In this document: piece after piece, positions 418-5,599 of the stretch | How the letters are laid out: each line of letters opens with the position of its first letter | How positions within the stretch are numbered: position 1 is the first letter of the stretch | The notes under the pieces: model-generated | The model's input: the letters and a program-made list of their open reading frames with translations, nothing else | Told to the model about the DNA's origin: nothing | Database searches by the model: none | Made by a program: the position numbers and the translations under genes | NCBI GenBank assembly: GCA_026692885.1 | Contig: JAPLNJ010000657.1 | Location: forward strand, 1 to 5,599 | Reading direction: 5' to 3' | Length of the DNA stretch: 5,599 nucleotides | DNA from: Planctomycetota bacterium | GTDB taxonomy: Bacteria > Planctomycetota > Planctomycetia > Pirellulales > Pirellulaceae

Positions 418-1464
418 TCACACAATGCGCCGCCATTTCGCCCACCGACCCTTTCCAAGGCACTCGACCTTCCCCTGGTCCCGTAAGTCGTTCAGTACCG
501 AGCGGATGGTATCCCTGCTGACGGTTGGGCAAGCATTTTCCACATCCCCGATGGTGAACTCGCTCAGAAAGTGCTCGATCGCATCCCGCACCATCGCCTG
601 CTTGGCCCCCGGGGCCGCCGTCACCAGATCCGTTCGCCGCTCTAACTCCCGGTAGGCGGTGACGATCGTGCCCAGCAGGTAGTCCCGCCAGGGCGCCAGT
701 GAGTGCTGTCCCTCGTGCCAGCCTTCGCTGGACGCCTTCAGGGCGCCGTAGTACGACTCCTTCGACTCCTCGATAATCCGCTCCAGGCTCACGTAGCGCC
801 CAACCTCGTAGCCGGCCTCGTACAGCATCAGGAGCGTCAGCAGCCGCGCCATGCGCCCGTTGCCATCGCGGAAGGGGTGGACGCAGAGGAAGTCGAGGAC
901 GAAGGCCGGAATCAACAGCAACGGCTCCACGGCCTCTTGTTGCCACAGCCGATTGAAGTCGCTGCACAGCCGTTCCATCCAGTCGGCCGTGAGCACGGCA
1001 GGGACACAGCGGAAGCGGGTCGTGCGGGTGCCGTCTGAGCGGACGTCGGCGATCTCGTTGTCCACCTGCTTCCAATGCCCACCGGGTTCGGCCGAGAACT
1101 TATACAGGTCGCGGTGGAGTTGGAGGATGACGCCTGGGCGAACCTTCACATGCTCGTGGGAGGCATGGATGGTGGCCAGCACGTCGCGGTAGCCGGCGAT
1201 CTCTTCCTCCGAGCGGTTGGCCGGCGTGGTCTTCTGGGCCATCAGCTCGCGAAGCCGGTCCGGCGGCGCCGTGACGCCTTCGATCCGGTTCGACGACTCC
1301 GTGGACTGAATGATCGCCACTTCCTGGAGTTGCTTCAGGACTTCGGGGAACCGCTCGTTCCACATGTCCTGCTTCCCCTTGAACTCACCGATCACCCGCA
1401 CGGTGCTCAACAGCGCCGGCGTGAGCGGCTGGCGGAGAACACGATCATCCTCGAATGATTTCAT
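418..1464 (-). CDS. Fic family protein, class II (N-terminal inhibitory motif), putative AMP-transferase
   Basis: A complete 348-residue Fic protein. The family transfers AMP, or sometimes another nucleotide or phosphate group, from a nucleotide onto a hydroxyl side chain of a target protein in the cytoplasm. The catalytic motif HPFRDGNGRMAR is at residues 196-207: His196 is the general base, Asp200 the metal ligand, and the Gly-Asn-Gly-Arg loop binds phosphates. An S-x-x-x-E-G inhibitory motif lies at residues 58-63 (Glu62), upstream of the Fic core. This places it in the self-inhibited class, so no separate antitoxin is needed and none is seen. Residues 290-348 look like a winged helix-turn-helix, common at the C-terminus of Fic proteins with this layout. 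The ATG at 1464 has a purine-rich AGAAGGGG about 10 nt upstream. It faces away from the phage-like reading frame on its right and is followed by a strong inverted repeat. The target is unknown. It is probably cargo of the integrated element, or the footprint of a later insertion. Confidence 0.93.
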   Translation of the reverse strand: MKSFEDDRVLRQPLTPALLSTVRVIGEFKGKQDMWNERFPEVLKQLQEVAIIQSTESSNRIEGVTAPPDRLRELMAQKTTPANRSEEEIAGYRDVLATIHASHEHVKVRPGVILQLHRDLYKFSAEPGGHWKQVDNEIADVRSDGTRTTRFRCVPAVLTADWMERLCSDFNRLWQQEAVEPLLLIPAFVLDFLCVHPFRDGNGRMARLLTLLMLYEAGYEVGRYVSLERIIEESKESYYGALKASSEGWHEGQHSLAPWRDYLLGTIVTAYRELERRTDLVTAAPGAKQAMVRDAIEHFLSEFTIGDVENACPTVSRDTIRSVLNDLRDQGKVECLGKGRWAKWRRIV

Positions 1465-1519: not shown

Positions 1520-2662
1520 ATGAAGGCCCGCACCTGTTCCGCGGCATTGATCTTGAGTTGGGCTAACCTGCAAGCCGCGCGGGATTACGCCGTGATCACC
1601 AGCGGCTTGGTTGCGTCCGAGATCGAGGACGTTCACGACTTCCAGGTATTTGAGCGACTGTTCGAGGACCTGGAGGGGAAGGACAAGTCTCGGCTGCAAA
1701 AGGCATTGAACCCGCGGAATGCCTTGTCCGGGTATCGCGAGTGGGCGAACCTGACGAGCAACCACCGTGAGGCGATCTTACGGTATGCCGCGTTCCTTCA
1801 CTTCAAGGAACGGCTGCAAGCTGGGGACCTGACGAACTTCGCCGCATCGGATCGAGGCGTCGCCAAGACCCTCGTTGACACGATGGGCGTGGACGCCGCG
1901 GCGGCCCATATGTCCCGTGACCTGTTGGGCGACTACGGCGACGTTAGCCAGTACGGCCAGGCCCTACGCACGCGGATTGTTCCGTTCTGGGCGTTCCAGG
2001 AAATCAACCTCCGCCGGTTCCCGACCATGATCGCCAACTCGATCGCGGCCGGAGACTGGAAGGGGGCGGCTCGCAGCGTGGGTGTCAAGTCGGTGTCGGT
2101 CCCACTGAAAGTTGCCCTGGCCGTCTCCCGCAACGCGTGGATGTTTGGCGCCGCGTGGTTGTTCAACCACATCATGTTCCCGGACGATGAGGCGATCGCC
2201 AGGGGCAAGCTGCTGGCTGGCGACGAGAAGTACCAGCACGCCTACGATGGTTTCCGGGCCTTCCTGCGGAGCCTAGACCCGGTCGAGAACAAATTGAACC
2301 CGGTTCGTGAGCAGCGGTTCGTTGAAGAGTACCTGAACCCCACCGACCTGGCCAAGCTCGACATCGCCCGCGCGTGGGCACGCGACCAGGAACTCCGCGG
2401 ATGGACGTGGTGGCAGCAGGCCAGCGAGGAAGGCGACTCGCCTGACCAGCGGAAAGCCAACAAACGGGCCGTGGCCAAGGAACGCCATTCAATGGCCGCT
2501 CAGGCGACGCACAGTATGCCGGCTCGGAAGCCCGGCGAGACAGCCGAGGAACACTCGGCCATGCGTGCCGAGATTAAGGACAAACGGATTAGGGCACGAG
2601 AAGACTTGAAGCTCAAGACACTTAGAAAGAGGGATTATGGGATTCTCAGTGGCGGTTATTGA
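1520..2662 (+). CDS. C-terminal part of a phage-type large polyvalent protein (LPD38-like), probably 5'-truncated
   Basis: A 380-codon frame from its first plausible ATG (1520). That start has no visible ribosome-binding site, and the frame stays open further upstream, antisense to the Fic gene. Typical of the C-terminal portion of very large phage or plasmid polyvalent proteins are an Asp-Tyr-rich stretch (SRDLLGDYGDVSQYG, about residues 132-146), followed by RIVPFWAFQEINLRRFP (about 152-168) and then a hydrophobic, possibly membrane-associated helix (about 194-221). I recall this pattern from the LPD38 domain and related internal virion proteins; no search was run. The tail, roughly the last 100 residues, is highly charged and helical and ends in Ser-Gly-Gly-Tyr. 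Whole proteins of this kind usually exceed 1000 residues, so this is most likely a remnant whose upstream part was lost where the Fic gene now lies. A short stand-alone protein is the alternative. Matching residues may begin only near position 1583. Confidence 0.6.
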   Translation: MKARTCSAALILSWANLQAARDYAVITSGLVASEIEDVHDFQVFERLFEDLEGKDKSRLQKALNPRNALSGYREWANLTSNHREAILRYAAFLHFKERLQAGDLTNFAASDRGVAKTLVDTMGVDAAAAHMSRDLLGDYGDVSQYGQALRTRIVPFWAFQEINLRRFPTMIANSIAAGDWKGAARSVGVKSVSVPLKVALAVSRNAWMFGAAWLFNHIMFPDDEAIARGKLLAGDEKYQHAYDGFRAFLRSLDPVENKLNPVREQRFVEEYLNPTDLAKLDIARAWARDQELRGWTWWQQASEEGDSPDQRKANKRAVAKERHSMAAQATHSMPARKPGETAEEHSAMRAEIKDKRIRAREDLKLKTLRKRDYGILSGGY

Positions 2663-3005: not shown

Positions 3006-4109
3006 CTACCCCAGTTCGTTGGCGATCTGCTGTGCTAACGCCAGCCGCTTGCTGGTGTAGATTTGGGTGGCTGTCAACGAGGCATGCCCCAGCATGGATT
3101 GGGCCGCCTCGGCGCCGAATCGCTCCCTGATCATCTGGCCGCGGGAGTGCCGGATGTGATGGGGTGTCCAGTGCGGGAACGGCTCCAGATTCGCTTCTAC
3201 CCTCGCGGTGTTGACTCGCTCGGCCGCCCGCGCGATCGCCTGGCGGTAGCTGTAGGTGGAATACGCCGGTCGGTACCTTCGGTTACCGGACACGGCCCGC
3301 GGGGACCACAGCGGGGCGGTGGGGTCCTCGGCCTTGTCCAGGTACGGCTGTAGGACTGCCTTGCATTGCGGCCCGATCGGCACGATCAGCTCCTTGCCTT
3401 GCTTCTGGGTCTTGTGCTTGGGCCTCCAGAACAACGACCCGCCTGAGTCCGCGAACTGTTCGCCCTTGGCGTTGACTAGGGAGTCGGACCGGACCAGGGT
3501 GTACCATTGGATCAAGAGCATGTCGTGGAGGTGGTCGCTCAGCTTGCCGAGTGCCGCCTCGATCCACTCCCACTGGATCGGTGGTAGCTTCTCCGGCTCC
3601 CTGGCCTCGGTCCGTCCCTCACGCAGGCCCTTGACGCACAGCAGCCGTTGGCCGATCTCACCGGGGACGATCTCCTCCTCGCCAGCCCAAAGGTACATGC
3701 GGATGATTTTGCGACGTTGGTTGTTGACGTACCCGCGGGCTTGTTTCTTCTTCGCCAGGGTGCCGAGGTAATCCTTGAACCGCTTCGGGCTGAAATCCAC
3801 TGCCATCGAGTTCTTGTAGTACTCGGCCAGCGGGATCAAGGCATAGCGAAGGTTATCGTACTCGCCCTTGTCGTAGTAGCCCTCGGCGAAGTCGAGAAAC
3901 TTGTGAACGAGGCGCGGCAGGCTTACGGGTCCCTTCTCGTCCTCGAACACGGCGGGAGCATCCACCATGACGGTGTCCCGAAGCCAGAGGCGATACGCCT
4001 CGCGGGACTCTGGAGAGTTATAGGGACCGGGAAAGCAGGTGACATGCCGCTTGAACGTGCCACAACCCAGGTCCCGATTGTACATCTTTCGATACTTGGG
4101 CACTCGCAT
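3006..4109 (-). CDS. Tyrosine recombinase / phage-type integrase
   Basis: A 367-residue site-specific recombinase that would cut and rejoin DNA at attachment sites through a covalent tyrosine intermediate. Residues about 55-165 form the helical core-binding domain and about 175-367 the catalytic domain. The full catalytic set is visible: Arg207 (in TLVRSDSL), Lys near 231-233 (PKHKT), HHIRH with His317 and Arg320, His342 (LGHASL) and Tyr351 (QIYTS). The length is normal and there is no sign of decay. The ATG at 4109 is preferred over an in-frame TTG at 4190. The ATG has AGAGGA 7 nt upstream, and the TTG coincides with a candidate -35 box and sits next to the tRNA breakpoint. The gene begins about 95 bp from the broken tRNA-Ala on the same strand, the usual position of an element's integrase beside its attachment site. 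It most likely mobilises the element extending to its left. Confidence 0.93.
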   Translation of the reverse strand: MRVPKYRKMYNRDLGCGTFKRHVTCFPGPYNSPESREAYRLWLRDTVMVDAPAVFEDEKGPVSLPRLVHKFLDFAEGYYDKGEYDNLRYALIPLAEYYKNSMAVDFSPKRFKDYLGTLAKKKQARGYVNNQRRKIIRMYLWAGEEEIVPGEIGQRLLCVKGLREGRTEAREPEKLPPIQWEWIEAALGKLSDHLHDMLLIQWYTLVRSDSLVNAKGEQFADSGGSLFWRPKHKTQKQGKELIVPIGPQCKAVLQPYLDKAEDPTAPLWSPRAVSGNRRYRPAYSTYSYRQAIARAAERVNTARVEANLEPFPHWTPHHIRHSRGQMIRERFGAEAAQSMLGHASLTATQIYTSKRLALAQQIANELG

Positions 4110-4116
4110 TTTGATT

Positions 4117-4122
4117 TCCTCT
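4117..4122 (-). promoter_or_regulatory. Integrase ribosome-binding site that decides the start
   Basis: AGAGGA on the minus strand ends 7 nt before the ATG at 4109. It supports that ATG as the start and a 367-residue protein instead of 394. The site overlaps one arm (4111-4119) of the inverted repeat described at 4111-4190. Confidence 0.6.
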
Positions 4123-4161
4123 GGAAACGCGTTTTTCGAAACTGGGCGCAACAATCGCAAC

Positions 4162-4190
4162 AGTGTATCGCGTTTTTTCAGGGAAATCAA
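4162..4190 (-). promoter_or_regulatory. Candidate integrase promoter
   Basis: On the minus strand TTGATT (-35, 4185-4190) is separated by 17 bp from TACACT (-10, 4162-4167). Each box matches four of six sigma70 consensus positions. Transcription would begin near 4155, leaving a leader of about 45 nt before the ATG at 4109. It lies entirely on the element side of the tRNA breakpoint. Confidence 0.35.
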
Positions 4191-4203
4191 GCATTATGCC
4201 GCC

Positions 4204-4217
4204 CTTGCAAAGCTAGT
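4204..4217. other. Candidate attachment-site core (attL/attR) at the tRNA anticodon stem-loop
   Basis: tRNA identity stops just after the anticodon loop, next to an integrase gene. Tyrosine recombinases commonly use the anticodon stem-loop of tRNA genes as their crossover core. The shared core should include TTTGCAA and some flanking bases. Its exact extent cannot be set without the other end of the element. Confidence 0.55.
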
Positions 4218-4242
4218 GCTCTCCCAATTGAGCTACGTCCCC
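4204..4242 (-). pseudogene. Truncated tRNA-Ala(TGC): 5' half only
   Basis: The minus strand shows a normal tRNA start: acceptor strand GGGGACG (4236-4242), TA, D-stem GCTC/GAGC with an 8-nt D-loop, anticodon 5' stem CTAGC (4212-4216) and loop TTTGCAA with anticodon TGC (4205-4211). The next bases should be GCTAG to close the anticodon stem, but only the first G matches. The remaining half (variable loop, T-arm, 3' acceptor) is absent here and I could not find it elsewhere in the window. G3 of the alanine identity pair is present, but its partner is lost. It lies 110 bp downstream of an intact tRNA-Ile, matching the common Ile-Ala tRNA order. It cannot make a tRNA as it stands. The break marks the end of an integrated element. 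Confidence 0.85.
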
Positions 4243-4312
4243 CTAGCCGGCCAGAATCCTGCCGGCGTCGGCTGGCGTTCATCGGGTGGGGGCAAGTCCT
4301 GCCCGCCAACGA

Positions 4313-4326
4313 CGGGCTACAGCCCG
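4313..4326. repeat. Small GC hairpin in the tRNA spacer
   Basis: CGGGC-TACA-GCCCG forms a 5-bp stem with a 4-nt loop in the 110-bp spacer between tRNA-Ile and the tRNA-Ala fragment. A second short dyad, GCCGGC at 4246-4251 and 4261-4266, lies just upstream of the tRNA-Ala fragment. They may be processing structures in the tRNA transcript or a small intergenic repeat. Confidence 0.35.
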
Positions 4327-4352
4327 CGCTACGATCAAAAACTCACCTGCAG

Positions 4353-4426
4353 TGGGCGCACATGGAGTCGAACCATGGACCTCGTCGTTATCAGCGACGC
4401 GCTCTAACCAACTGAGCTATGCGCCC
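4353..4426 (-). tRNA. tRNA-Ile(GAT)
   Basis: An intact 74-base cloverleaf. Acceptor GGGCGCA pairs with TGCGCCC; the D-stem is GCTC/GAGC; the anticodon stem CGTCG/CGACG closes loop CTGATAA with anticodon GAT. The variable loop is AGGTC, the T-stem CATGG/CCATG closes TTCGACT, and the discriminator base is A. The genomic sequence continues CTG, so the CCA end is not encoded and must be added after transcription. It is the first gene of a tRNA-Ile/tRNA-Ala pair, with its own promoter upstream, and is not inside an rRNA operon here. Confidence 0.97.
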
Positions 4427-4452
4427 CGGCAATCTGCGGCGGCCGAGCCAGT

Positions 4453-4480
4453 ATTCTATGCACCGCCGCCTGCGTGTCAA
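4453..4480 (-). promoter_or_regulatory. Sigma70-type promoter of the tRNA-Ile/tRNA-Ala unit
   Basis: On the minus strand a perfect -35 box TTGACA (4475-4480) lies 16 bp from TAGAAT (4453-4458), which matches five of six -10 positions. Transcription would begin about 20 nt before tRNA-Ile. After the tRNA-Ala break, this promoter points straight into the integrase gene. Confidence 0.7.
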
Positions 4481-4511
4481 ACGGTGGTCCGGGCGGGATA
4501 TCGGCTCCGGA

Positions 4512-4586
4512 CCGATAATTCTGCAGGGATCTTGGCCAAAAATCCTGCCAGTTCTTGCCGCGTGACTGAAGTCTCAGAATAATCGG
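4512..4586. repeat. Nested inverted repeat between divergent promoters
   Basis: CCGATAATTCTG (4512-4523) and CAGAATAATCGG (4575-4586) are inverted copies with one mismatch in 12. Inside, 4523-4530 can pair with 4542-4548 (GCAGG, a bulged G, then AT) around the palindrome TTGGCCAA (4532-4539). The left arm can also pair locally with TATCGG at 4499-4504. No target duplication is seen at the edges. It could be a regulatory dyad for the secreted-protein gene or a small decayed mobile repeat. Confidence 0.5.
4555..4583 (+). promoter_or_regulatory. Candidate promoter for the secreted-protein gene
   Basis: TTGCCG (4555-4560, four of six -35 positions) is followed after 17 bp by AATAAT (4578-4583, five of six -10 positions). 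The leader to the ATG at 4684 would be about 95 nt. The -10 box lies within the right arm of the nested inverted repeat, which would let a bound protein block it. Confidence 0.35.
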
Positions 4587-4683
4587 AAAAATTTGCCCAG
4601 TTTCGCTACGTCGTGCGCAGGCCGGCGTCCGAACAATAAATGGGGTTTACGCACGTCTTGTCGAAGCGGAGGAGTCGCAGGCT

Positions 4684-5599
4684 ATGTCTCAACGCAAACA
4701 TCGCATTCTTCTTGGATTGGCCATTTTAGCGGCGGCGTGGGCGATGACCGGTCGCGCGTTGGCAGCGAAGCCCACGGTGGAGGCAGCGCTGACGCTCAAG
4801 CCGCTCCAAGCCGACGTCGACTACGAGACACCGACCGGAGATGATGTGGCGAAGTGTACGATACAGACAGCCACCGGCCCCGGCGCTTCCGGCTGGCTGG
4901 TGTTCAATTCCGCCGGGCAACTCCTCCGCCGGTTCCTGGACACCAACAGCGACAATAAGCTGGATCAGTGGTGCTACTACAAGAACGGGATCGAGGTCTA
5001 CCGGGACGTTGATTCCAACTTCAACGGCAAGGCCGATCAGTACCGTTGGCTGGGCACTGCGGGCATTCGCTGGGGCTTGGACGACAACGAGGACGGCCGC
5101 ATCGAGCGGTGGAAGATGATTTCTGCGGAAGAAGTGGCAGCCGAGGTAGTCGCAGCCCTGCGCACTCGCGACGAGAAGCGGTTCCAACGGCTCCTGCTAA
5201 GTCCCGAAGAACTCAAGCTGTTGGGGTTGGGCGAAGTTCAGGCCGGTGAGATTGCCAAGAAAGTCGCGGCGGCCAGCCAATCTTTCGCCAATCTGGCCCA
5301 ACAGCAGACGGTGGTGGGCAAGGATGCAGAGTGGATCAGCTTCGGTGCGAATCACCCGTGCACGGTGCCTGTCGGCTTTGAGGGTGCCAAGCGGGATGTA
5401 ATCGTCTACGACGCGGTGTCAGCCATCGTCGCGACGGGCGGAAAAACCGCCCAGATTACGCTGGGTACTTTGATTCAAACGGAAGGCGGTTGGCGCATGA
5501 TCGACCTGCCGCAGAATCTGTTGGACAGCCAGACCAATAACTTGGCGGGCGGCTTCTTCTTCCAGGACCCGCCTACGCGCCAACCCGACATGGCGGGCA
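4684..5599 (+). CDS. Secreted protein with calcium-loop-like repeats, N-terminal 305 residues (runs off the window)
   Basis: Open from ATG 4684 to the window end with no stop. GGAGGAG (4668-4674) lies 9 nt upstream, making this start secure. Residues 1-27 form a signal peptide: basic RKHR, a hydrophobic core (8-21), and cleavage after Ala-Leu-Ala, so the product is exported. Three acidic loops follow at similar spacing: DTNSDNKLD (86-94), DSNFNGKAD (110-118) and DDNEDGRIE (133-141). They fit the DxNx(D/N)GxxD/E pattern of EF-hand, dockerin and thrombospondin-type-3 calcium loops, though the first has Asn in place of Gly. Trp/Tyr residues recur between them. Residues 145-280 look like an alpha/beta region without a motif I can name. 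I associate this N-terminal architecture with planctomycete exported proteins that carry a C-terminal thioredoxin-like domain. That part would lie outside the window, so the link is tentative. The gene belongs to the chromosome flank, not to the integrated element. Confidence 0.85.
   Translation, partial: MSQRKHRILLGLAILAAAWAMTGRALAAKPTVEAALTLKPLQADVDYETPTGDDVAKCTIQTATGPGASGWLVFNSAGQLLRRFLDTNSDNKLDQWCYYKNGIEVYRDVDSNFNGKADQYRWLGTAGIRWGLDDNEDGRIERWKMISAEEVAAEVVAALRTRDEKRFQRLLLSPEELKLLGLGEVQAGEIAKKVAAASQSFANLAQQQTVVGKDAEWISFGANHPCTVPVGFEGAKRDVIVYDAVSAIVATGGKTAQITLGTLIQTEGGWRMIDLPQNLLDSQTNNLAGGFFFQDPPTRQPDMAG

Follow-up and report, generated by a model that had tools for sequence, protein, structure and literature searches.

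In bacteria, tRNA-targeting elements of reversed orientation were reportedly described by Zhao and Williams in 2002. Use of the 5' region of tRNA genes for recombination is described as considerably less frequent (PMC6563490), and Islander is reported to contain 5' fragments in 159 of 3919 islands (PMC4383910). For the archaeal pTN3-like integrases, attB is given as the tRNA 5' half with 41 bp shared, and the tRNA is said to be rebuilt and separated from its original promoter, a situation seldom met in bacteria according to these accounts (PMC8371274, PMC5495485). Some mycobacteriophages are described as showing tRNA-dependent lysogeny, in which attP and attB share about 10 bp and, in the account given, the tRNA is not rebuilt (PMC10865867), while expression of the ICEKp1 integrase is reported to depend on the host tRNA promoter as long as the element is integrated and on an end promoter once it has been excised (PMC13023037).

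Here we analysed a stretch of 5,599 nucleotides from a Planctomycetota bacterium (the window), in which a first-pass annotation had noted an integrated element that interrupts a tRNA-Ala(TGC) gene at its anticodon loop. Like the reversed-orientation elements, which are described as having a whole tRNA at their other end (PMC4383910), the window has a 5' fragment displaced to the integrase side, but it differs from them in that its integrase belongs to another clade, found in Planctomycetota-type genomes. Since such rare reversed elements are already known (159/3919 in Islander), the window is a member of a known rare kind, with an integrase clade that we did not find described in a limited literature search; titles and the starts of abstracts on Planctomycetota prophages, integrases and tRNA genes held nothing on the subject. 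Whereas integration of pTN3 is described as disrupting its own integrase gene (PMC5495485), the integrase of the window is intact beside the junction and belongs to another domain of life. The elements that restore the 3' half share the integrase family and the same loop with the window, with halves that often start around position 30-35; however, they carry the 3' half beside the integrase and keep the host promoter, whereas the clade of the window leaves a 5' half there. As in tRNA-dependent lysogeny, the host tRNA is broken at the anticodon region, but those phages are described as carrying a whole tRNA instead of rebuilding one (PMC10865867). The promoter switching of ICEKp1 is reported as experimental (PMC13023037), whereas that proposed for the window is read from the layout, and a rebuilt tRNA would change its promoter as well.

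The split tRNA-Ala(TGC) gene and its host locus

Read by eye on the minus strand from 4242 to 4204, the window contains tRNA-Ala(TGC) positions 1-39, comprising the acceptor 5' strand, the D arm, the anticodon stem 5' strand and the loop TTTGCAA, with non-tRNA sequence beyond. The features of the window are:

418..1464, minus strand: Fic/DOC-family gene, presumed element cargo (PF02661, E 1e-14; phrog_5978, E 3e-44)
1595..2662, plus strand: open frame presumed to belong to the element, with no Pfam or PHROG match
3006..4109, minus strand: tyrosine integrase of 367 aa from its ATG (PF00589, conserved residues)
4110..4203, minus strand: 94 bases of element DNA from the anticodon loop to the integrase start, non-tRNA sequence
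4204..4242, minus strand: 5' half of tRNA-Ala(TGC), positions 1-39, host side of the junction
4352..4426, minus strand: host tRNA-Ile(GAT) gene (ARAGORN), which lies upstream of the split one
4453..4480, minus strand: TTGACA-16-TAGAAT, a promoter-like site that precedes tRNA-Ile and agrees with the consensus at 11 of 12 bases, a consensus match only
4684..5598, plus strand: divergent host gene that runs off the window, conserved beside tRNA-Ile/tRNA-Ala in relatives

Compared with the tRNA-Ala(TGC) of a relative (L205), 37 of 39 bases were identical at positions 1-39 and 11 of 34, near chance, over the next 34 bases. A BLAST search of the half against 137 tRNAs matched another tRNA-Ala(TGC) (L138) over positions 1-39 (92%, E 2e-10), and the tRNA-Ala of L216 was 87% identical over 39 bases by BLAST, its position-by-position score of 10/39 being due to a one-base shift. 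The neighbouring host gene was searched for in 392 genomes (the phylum of G001) and was present in 40, and 12 of its loci were examined. A whole tRNA-Ala(TGC) together with tRNA-Ile(GAT) stood beside it in the order of the window in 8 of the 12 relatives, while no tRNA was found at this locus in three (L208, L209 and L211) and tRNA-Ile only in a fourth (L210). In the last of these, tRNA-Ala is absent from the 539 bases after tRNA-Ile (L210:3347-3885), in contrast to the eight other relatives.

As the locus is conserved in relatives and identity ends at the loop, the right side of the window belongs to the host chromosome, which is interrupted where the anticodon loop ends; as the gene is whole at the same locus in 8 of 12 relatives, the window holds one junction of an integrated element rather than a relic. 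The split proposed by the first-pass annotation is thus confirmed, both by the fall in identity, with an integrase gene adjoining, and by the comparison it had suggested with relatives lacking the element. A half-tRNA in relatives with no integrase beside it, which had been named as evidence to the contrary, was seen in none of the 12, eight of which had the whole gene and four no tRNA-Ala that we found.

The half and tRNA-Ile(GAT) are separated by 109 bases. Between 4000 and 4700 the window has two promoter-like sites against 0.3 expected in shuffles, and no terminator-like site. Over the whole window, the tRNA-Ile(GAT) at 4352-4426 was the sole tRNA identified by ARAGORN, and a search for a further copy of the tRNA-Ala half gave nothing. 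On the other side of the junction, 4110..4203 probably represents the element arm. The integrase matches PF00589 (E 6e-12) and has R207, K233, H317, R320, H342 and Y351, which are conserved or nearly so across the family and which we take to be the catalytic set of a tyrosine integrase. An alternative TTG start at 4190 would give a protein of 394 aa, and alignments with homologues begin at the ATG. Further into the presumed element, the Fic/DOC-family gene at 418..1464 probably belongs to it, and the frame at 1595-2662 had no homologue except itself among about 5.8 billion proteins; an earlier guess that it encodes a phage polyvalent protein was unsupported by the Pfam, PHROG and homologue searches. 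An inverted repeat of 19 bases, 95% complementary, occupies 346-415, and a repeated GTCAATATGGTA motif lies close to it at 35-52 and 365-382.

The integrase family and the tRNA halves beside its genes

Homologue searches with the integrase of the window found 40 proteins besides its own. An alignment of 12 of these (A1) led to 96 confirmed genome loci, of which 80 were kept, and to 5 viral loci. More loci came from sets of 392 and 396 genomes, which partly overlap; scoring there was usually confined to the five top first-look candidates of each genome, so some family members may have escaped notice. Among the genomes of the G002 order (38) and class (80), the search led back to a single locus, L002, which was already known, and additional family loci came from viral contigs. 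Viral contigs, phages and plasmids gave no relatives when a single integrase sequence was the query, and a sub-alignment (A3) gave none in viral contigs, where other alignments did find some.

For the main classification, 160 integrase rows were sorted by upstream content, with rows below 120 bits, duplicates and tRNA-only loci left out. A whole tRNA, not individually confirmed as the target, lay upstream in 94 rows, a 3' half in 42, a 5' half in 5 and nothing in 8, and 10 were too short. The window, which had initially fallen in the whole class (95) through its upstream tRNA-Ile, is removed from the 94, and L107 and L197, counted among the five 5'-half rows, are one locus. These figures supersede a cruder regular-expression count (whole 96, 3' half 36, 5' half 4, none 28 rows). 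Best matches to 3' halves have starts that range from position 21 to 61, with 33 the commonest (10 of 42), while those to 5' halves end at 38 (L001 and L002) and 42 (L085); the 5' half of L107 has a library match over 1-24 only, its end at 38 being read by eye and from its genome, G374. A further 31 viral rows, some of them records already counted, had 3 whole tRNAs, 12 3' parts, 2 5' parts and 14 with nothing, the two rows with a 5' part being one record (L242/L258).

Besides the window, 5' halves were thus observed at L001, L002, L107/L197, L085 and L258. That of L258 (9799-9836) is a tRNA-Lys(CTT) half ahead of the integrase, read by eye and covered by BLAST at positions 9-32, and that of L085 (9485-9526), likewise ahead of the integrase, is Met by BLAST. 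The far ends of L085 and L258, both loci from the viral collection, were not found, and no rebuilt tRNA was seen in the record of L085; the genes around both gave transposase, methylase and TnpB-like matches. A bit-score gap that seemed to divide 5'-type from 3'-type integrases was dropped, as L107, L085 and L258 carry 5' halves outside the supposed 5'-type group. In a viral record (L237), a 3' half best matching tRNA-Ala(TGC) lies just upstream of the integrase at 9992, and both halves of the tRNA type split in the window are therefore carried within the family.

A quick tree built from 176 rows placed L001, L002, P0002-P0012 and L146 together with the window (SH-aLRT 98). A careful tree of 71 chosen rows gave a group of 16 rows (L002, L240, L146, P0002-P0012, L001 and the window) with a bootstrap of 93, which had not settled, and an SH-aLRT of 95. 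The sister group (85/70) carries 3' halves (L237 and L238), L107 sits inside the 3'-type part of the tree (95/83), and L085 is placed elsewhere on a long branch. Since L107 and L085 stand apart from the group of the window, carriage of a 5' half probably arose more than once. Within the group, the viral locus L240, whose position is weakly supported (80/41), has a reversed tRNA 3' half upstream of its integrase with the loop end towards the integrase (L240:1-333); BLAST supports 24 bases of its T-arm side, ARAGORN finds no tRNA there, and the assignment to tRNA-Arg(CCT) is a reading by eye. Type I restriction and HNH genes are found in the neighbourhood of L240. In the four readable members of the group (n=4) the half and the integrase stand on opposite sides of the core, in the window by its junction only.

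Proposed rebuilding of the tRNA at the far end of the element

In the two closest genome relatives, L001 and L002, a tRNA 5' half has phage-type genes on one side and the integrase on the other. In L001 the order is leftward phage-type genes, with polymerase/exonuclease-like (E 5e-5) and excisionase-like (E 8e-4) matches, then the tRNA 5' half, then the integrase. This half is identical to the tRNA-Val(TAC) of its own genome (G001) at 38 of 38 bases, starting at base 1 and stopping where the loop ends; both flanks differ. The half in L002 is flanked on one side by a match to exonuclease VIII (E 3e-59) and a gene resembling an excisionase (E 6e-6), and on the other by the integrase and a repressor-like gene (E 1e-14). 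It resembles tRNA-Gly(CCC), with 87% identity to the tRNA-Gly of other loci and 80% only to that of its own genome, G002, leaving the host of this element unsure. A PHROG scan of 10 proteins from both loci left three without a match; these are both right-hand structural candidates in L002, one of which had been considered as a tape-measure gene, an idea we rejected, and one frame in L001. In our reading, both loci contain an element-borne attachment site that includes a tRNA 5' half.

Both ends of an integrated element were seen in one distantly related genome, G374, where the 5' half of tRNA-Val(CAC) is present twice, 40/40 identical, on one strand and 2.75 kb apart. The first copy is an orphan half that follows a promoter-like TTGACC-16-TACCAT and precedes the integrase, while the second, which follows a promoter-like TTGAAA-17-TAGAAT, is part of a complete tRNA-Val(CAC) identified by ARAGORN. 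These two promoter-like sites are the only ones in 3.2 kb, against 0.9 expected in shuffles, so where they lie says more than how many there are. G818 has this locus without interruption, the left flank being 91% identical over 879 bases up to the loop and the adjoining right flank 85% over the 283 bases that begin at the loop, and the whole tRNA-Val(CAC) was found at the match in 5 of 5 other genomes of the family. The integrase of G374 (L197:8502-9515) lies in another part of the tree from that of the window, among 3'-type integrases, and is decayed, matching the family only to position 278 of 368; the element is thus a remnant that has retained its tRNA-building end.

To the right of the whole tRNA-Val in G818 there is an integrase fragment (L199:2192 onward; also L197:11166-11549; 24.5 bits, E 5e-8), pointing to an earlier element of the 3' type. 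In that case the G374 tRNA-Val may owe its two halves to two different elements, a weak step because the DNA right of this tRNA scored 28 at best against 3'-type arms, not above the shuffle maximum of 30.

The first-pass annotation had offered two explanations for the broken tRNA-Ala, namely that the host tolerates losing the gene because it has another, or that the element supplies a 5' half that rebuilds the tRNA at its far end. The latter is the best supported of the two, and we give a probability of roughly 85% to an element that sits at the anticodon loop of tRNA-Ala(TGC), carries the 5' half and rebuilds the tRNA at its far end. By this mechanism, the attachment site of the free element would be made up of a copied tRNA 5' half, the loop in which crossover takes place and, after it, the integrase gene, and the element's own tyrosine integrase would insert it at the anticodon loop of the host tRNA-Ala(TGC). 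Recombination would leave the host promoter and host 5' half adjoining the integrase, which is where the window has its orphan half (4204-4242), as in reversed-orientation elements. At the far end, the element 5' half would be joined to the host 3' half, and element DNA would stand ahead of the complete tRNA so formed. Site-specific recombination must have this outcome if a 5' half is part of the free element, and G374 displays it. The rebuilt tRNA would then be expressed from an element promoter, and the integrated element would have its integrase read from the host tRNA promoter, which in the window could read on into the gene, given that 4000-4700 has no terminator-like site. Points against this explanation are that scans ahead of the halves in L001, L002 and L085 turned up no promoter-like site, that the integrase of G374 is decayed and placed among 3'-type integrases, that the host of the L002 element is unsure, and that the L085 record has no rebuilt tRNA. 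The window itself displays the junction, L001 and L002 a carried half, and G374 and G818 both ends with the empty site. Rebuilding as offered in the earlier explanation is thus directly seen in one distant relative, G374, and supported through the attachment sites of L001 and L002 in the window's own integrase clade, and the window's own far end presumably has a rebuilt tRNA-Ala as well.

The window displays the broken side only, and both this and an attP/attB identity of about 10 bp as described for the mycobacteriophages (PMC10865867) would be compatible with tRNA-dependent lysogeny, in which tRNA-Ala is broken, nothing is rebuilt and a separate whole tRNA of the same type is carried. We consider this very unlikely, as L001 and L002 carry the whole 5' half up to the loop rather than a 10-bp core and the sole tRNA in the window is tRNA-Ile. 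It is highly improbable that the window contains a usual element whose restored 3' half was later deleted between the loop and the integrase: most relatives are indeed of the 3' type (94 whole tRNAs and 42 3' halves of 160 rows), as are the sister group and the viral relative with the tRNA-Ala(TGC) 3' half, but L001 and L002 share the layout of the window, with a half inside element DNA that ends at the loop, and three clade members would have to have lost the same stretch.

The other explanation in the first-pass annotation, loss tolerated through a second tRNA-Ala(TGC) gene, came out as the less likely of its two and as extremely unlikely in our estimate. By BLAST, a single close tRNA-Ala(TGC) was present in 5 of 9 genomes (G355, G329, G207, G383 and G335), the other four being uninformative because the search missed a known gene in them, and loss of a sole copy is unlikely to be tolerated. 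The 5' half carried by L001 and L002 also implies rebuilding.

Possible docking in either orientation and implications for the host

Within the clade of the window, the carried half is a forward 5' half in L001 and L002 (and in the window by its junction) and a reversed 3' half in L240. Based on the four readable members with the half beyond the core from the integrase, and on the nearly symmetric anticodon stem-loop as presumed crossover, which would permit docking in either orientation, we tentatively suggest that one attachment-site design docks on a tRNA either way, with repeated switching between front and back among elements, although we hold this to be rather less than an even chance. 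If true, host tRNA promoters, and in G374 perhaps both tRNA halves, would come from successive mobile elements.

The arrangement is a rare mirror image of the usual one, in that such elements can carry a spare front half of the tRNA, as the relatives show. While the usual tRNA-targeting elements leave the tRNA under the host promoter, here a likely essential gene would pass to element DNA, and such control would tie the host to the element, as illustrated by G374, in which the integrase has decayed and the tRNA-rebuilding end has been kept. With both orientations close together, attachment sites and an empty site, the family is tractable and suits asking how integrases change the half that they carry, and whether tRNA genes gain promoters via mobile elements.
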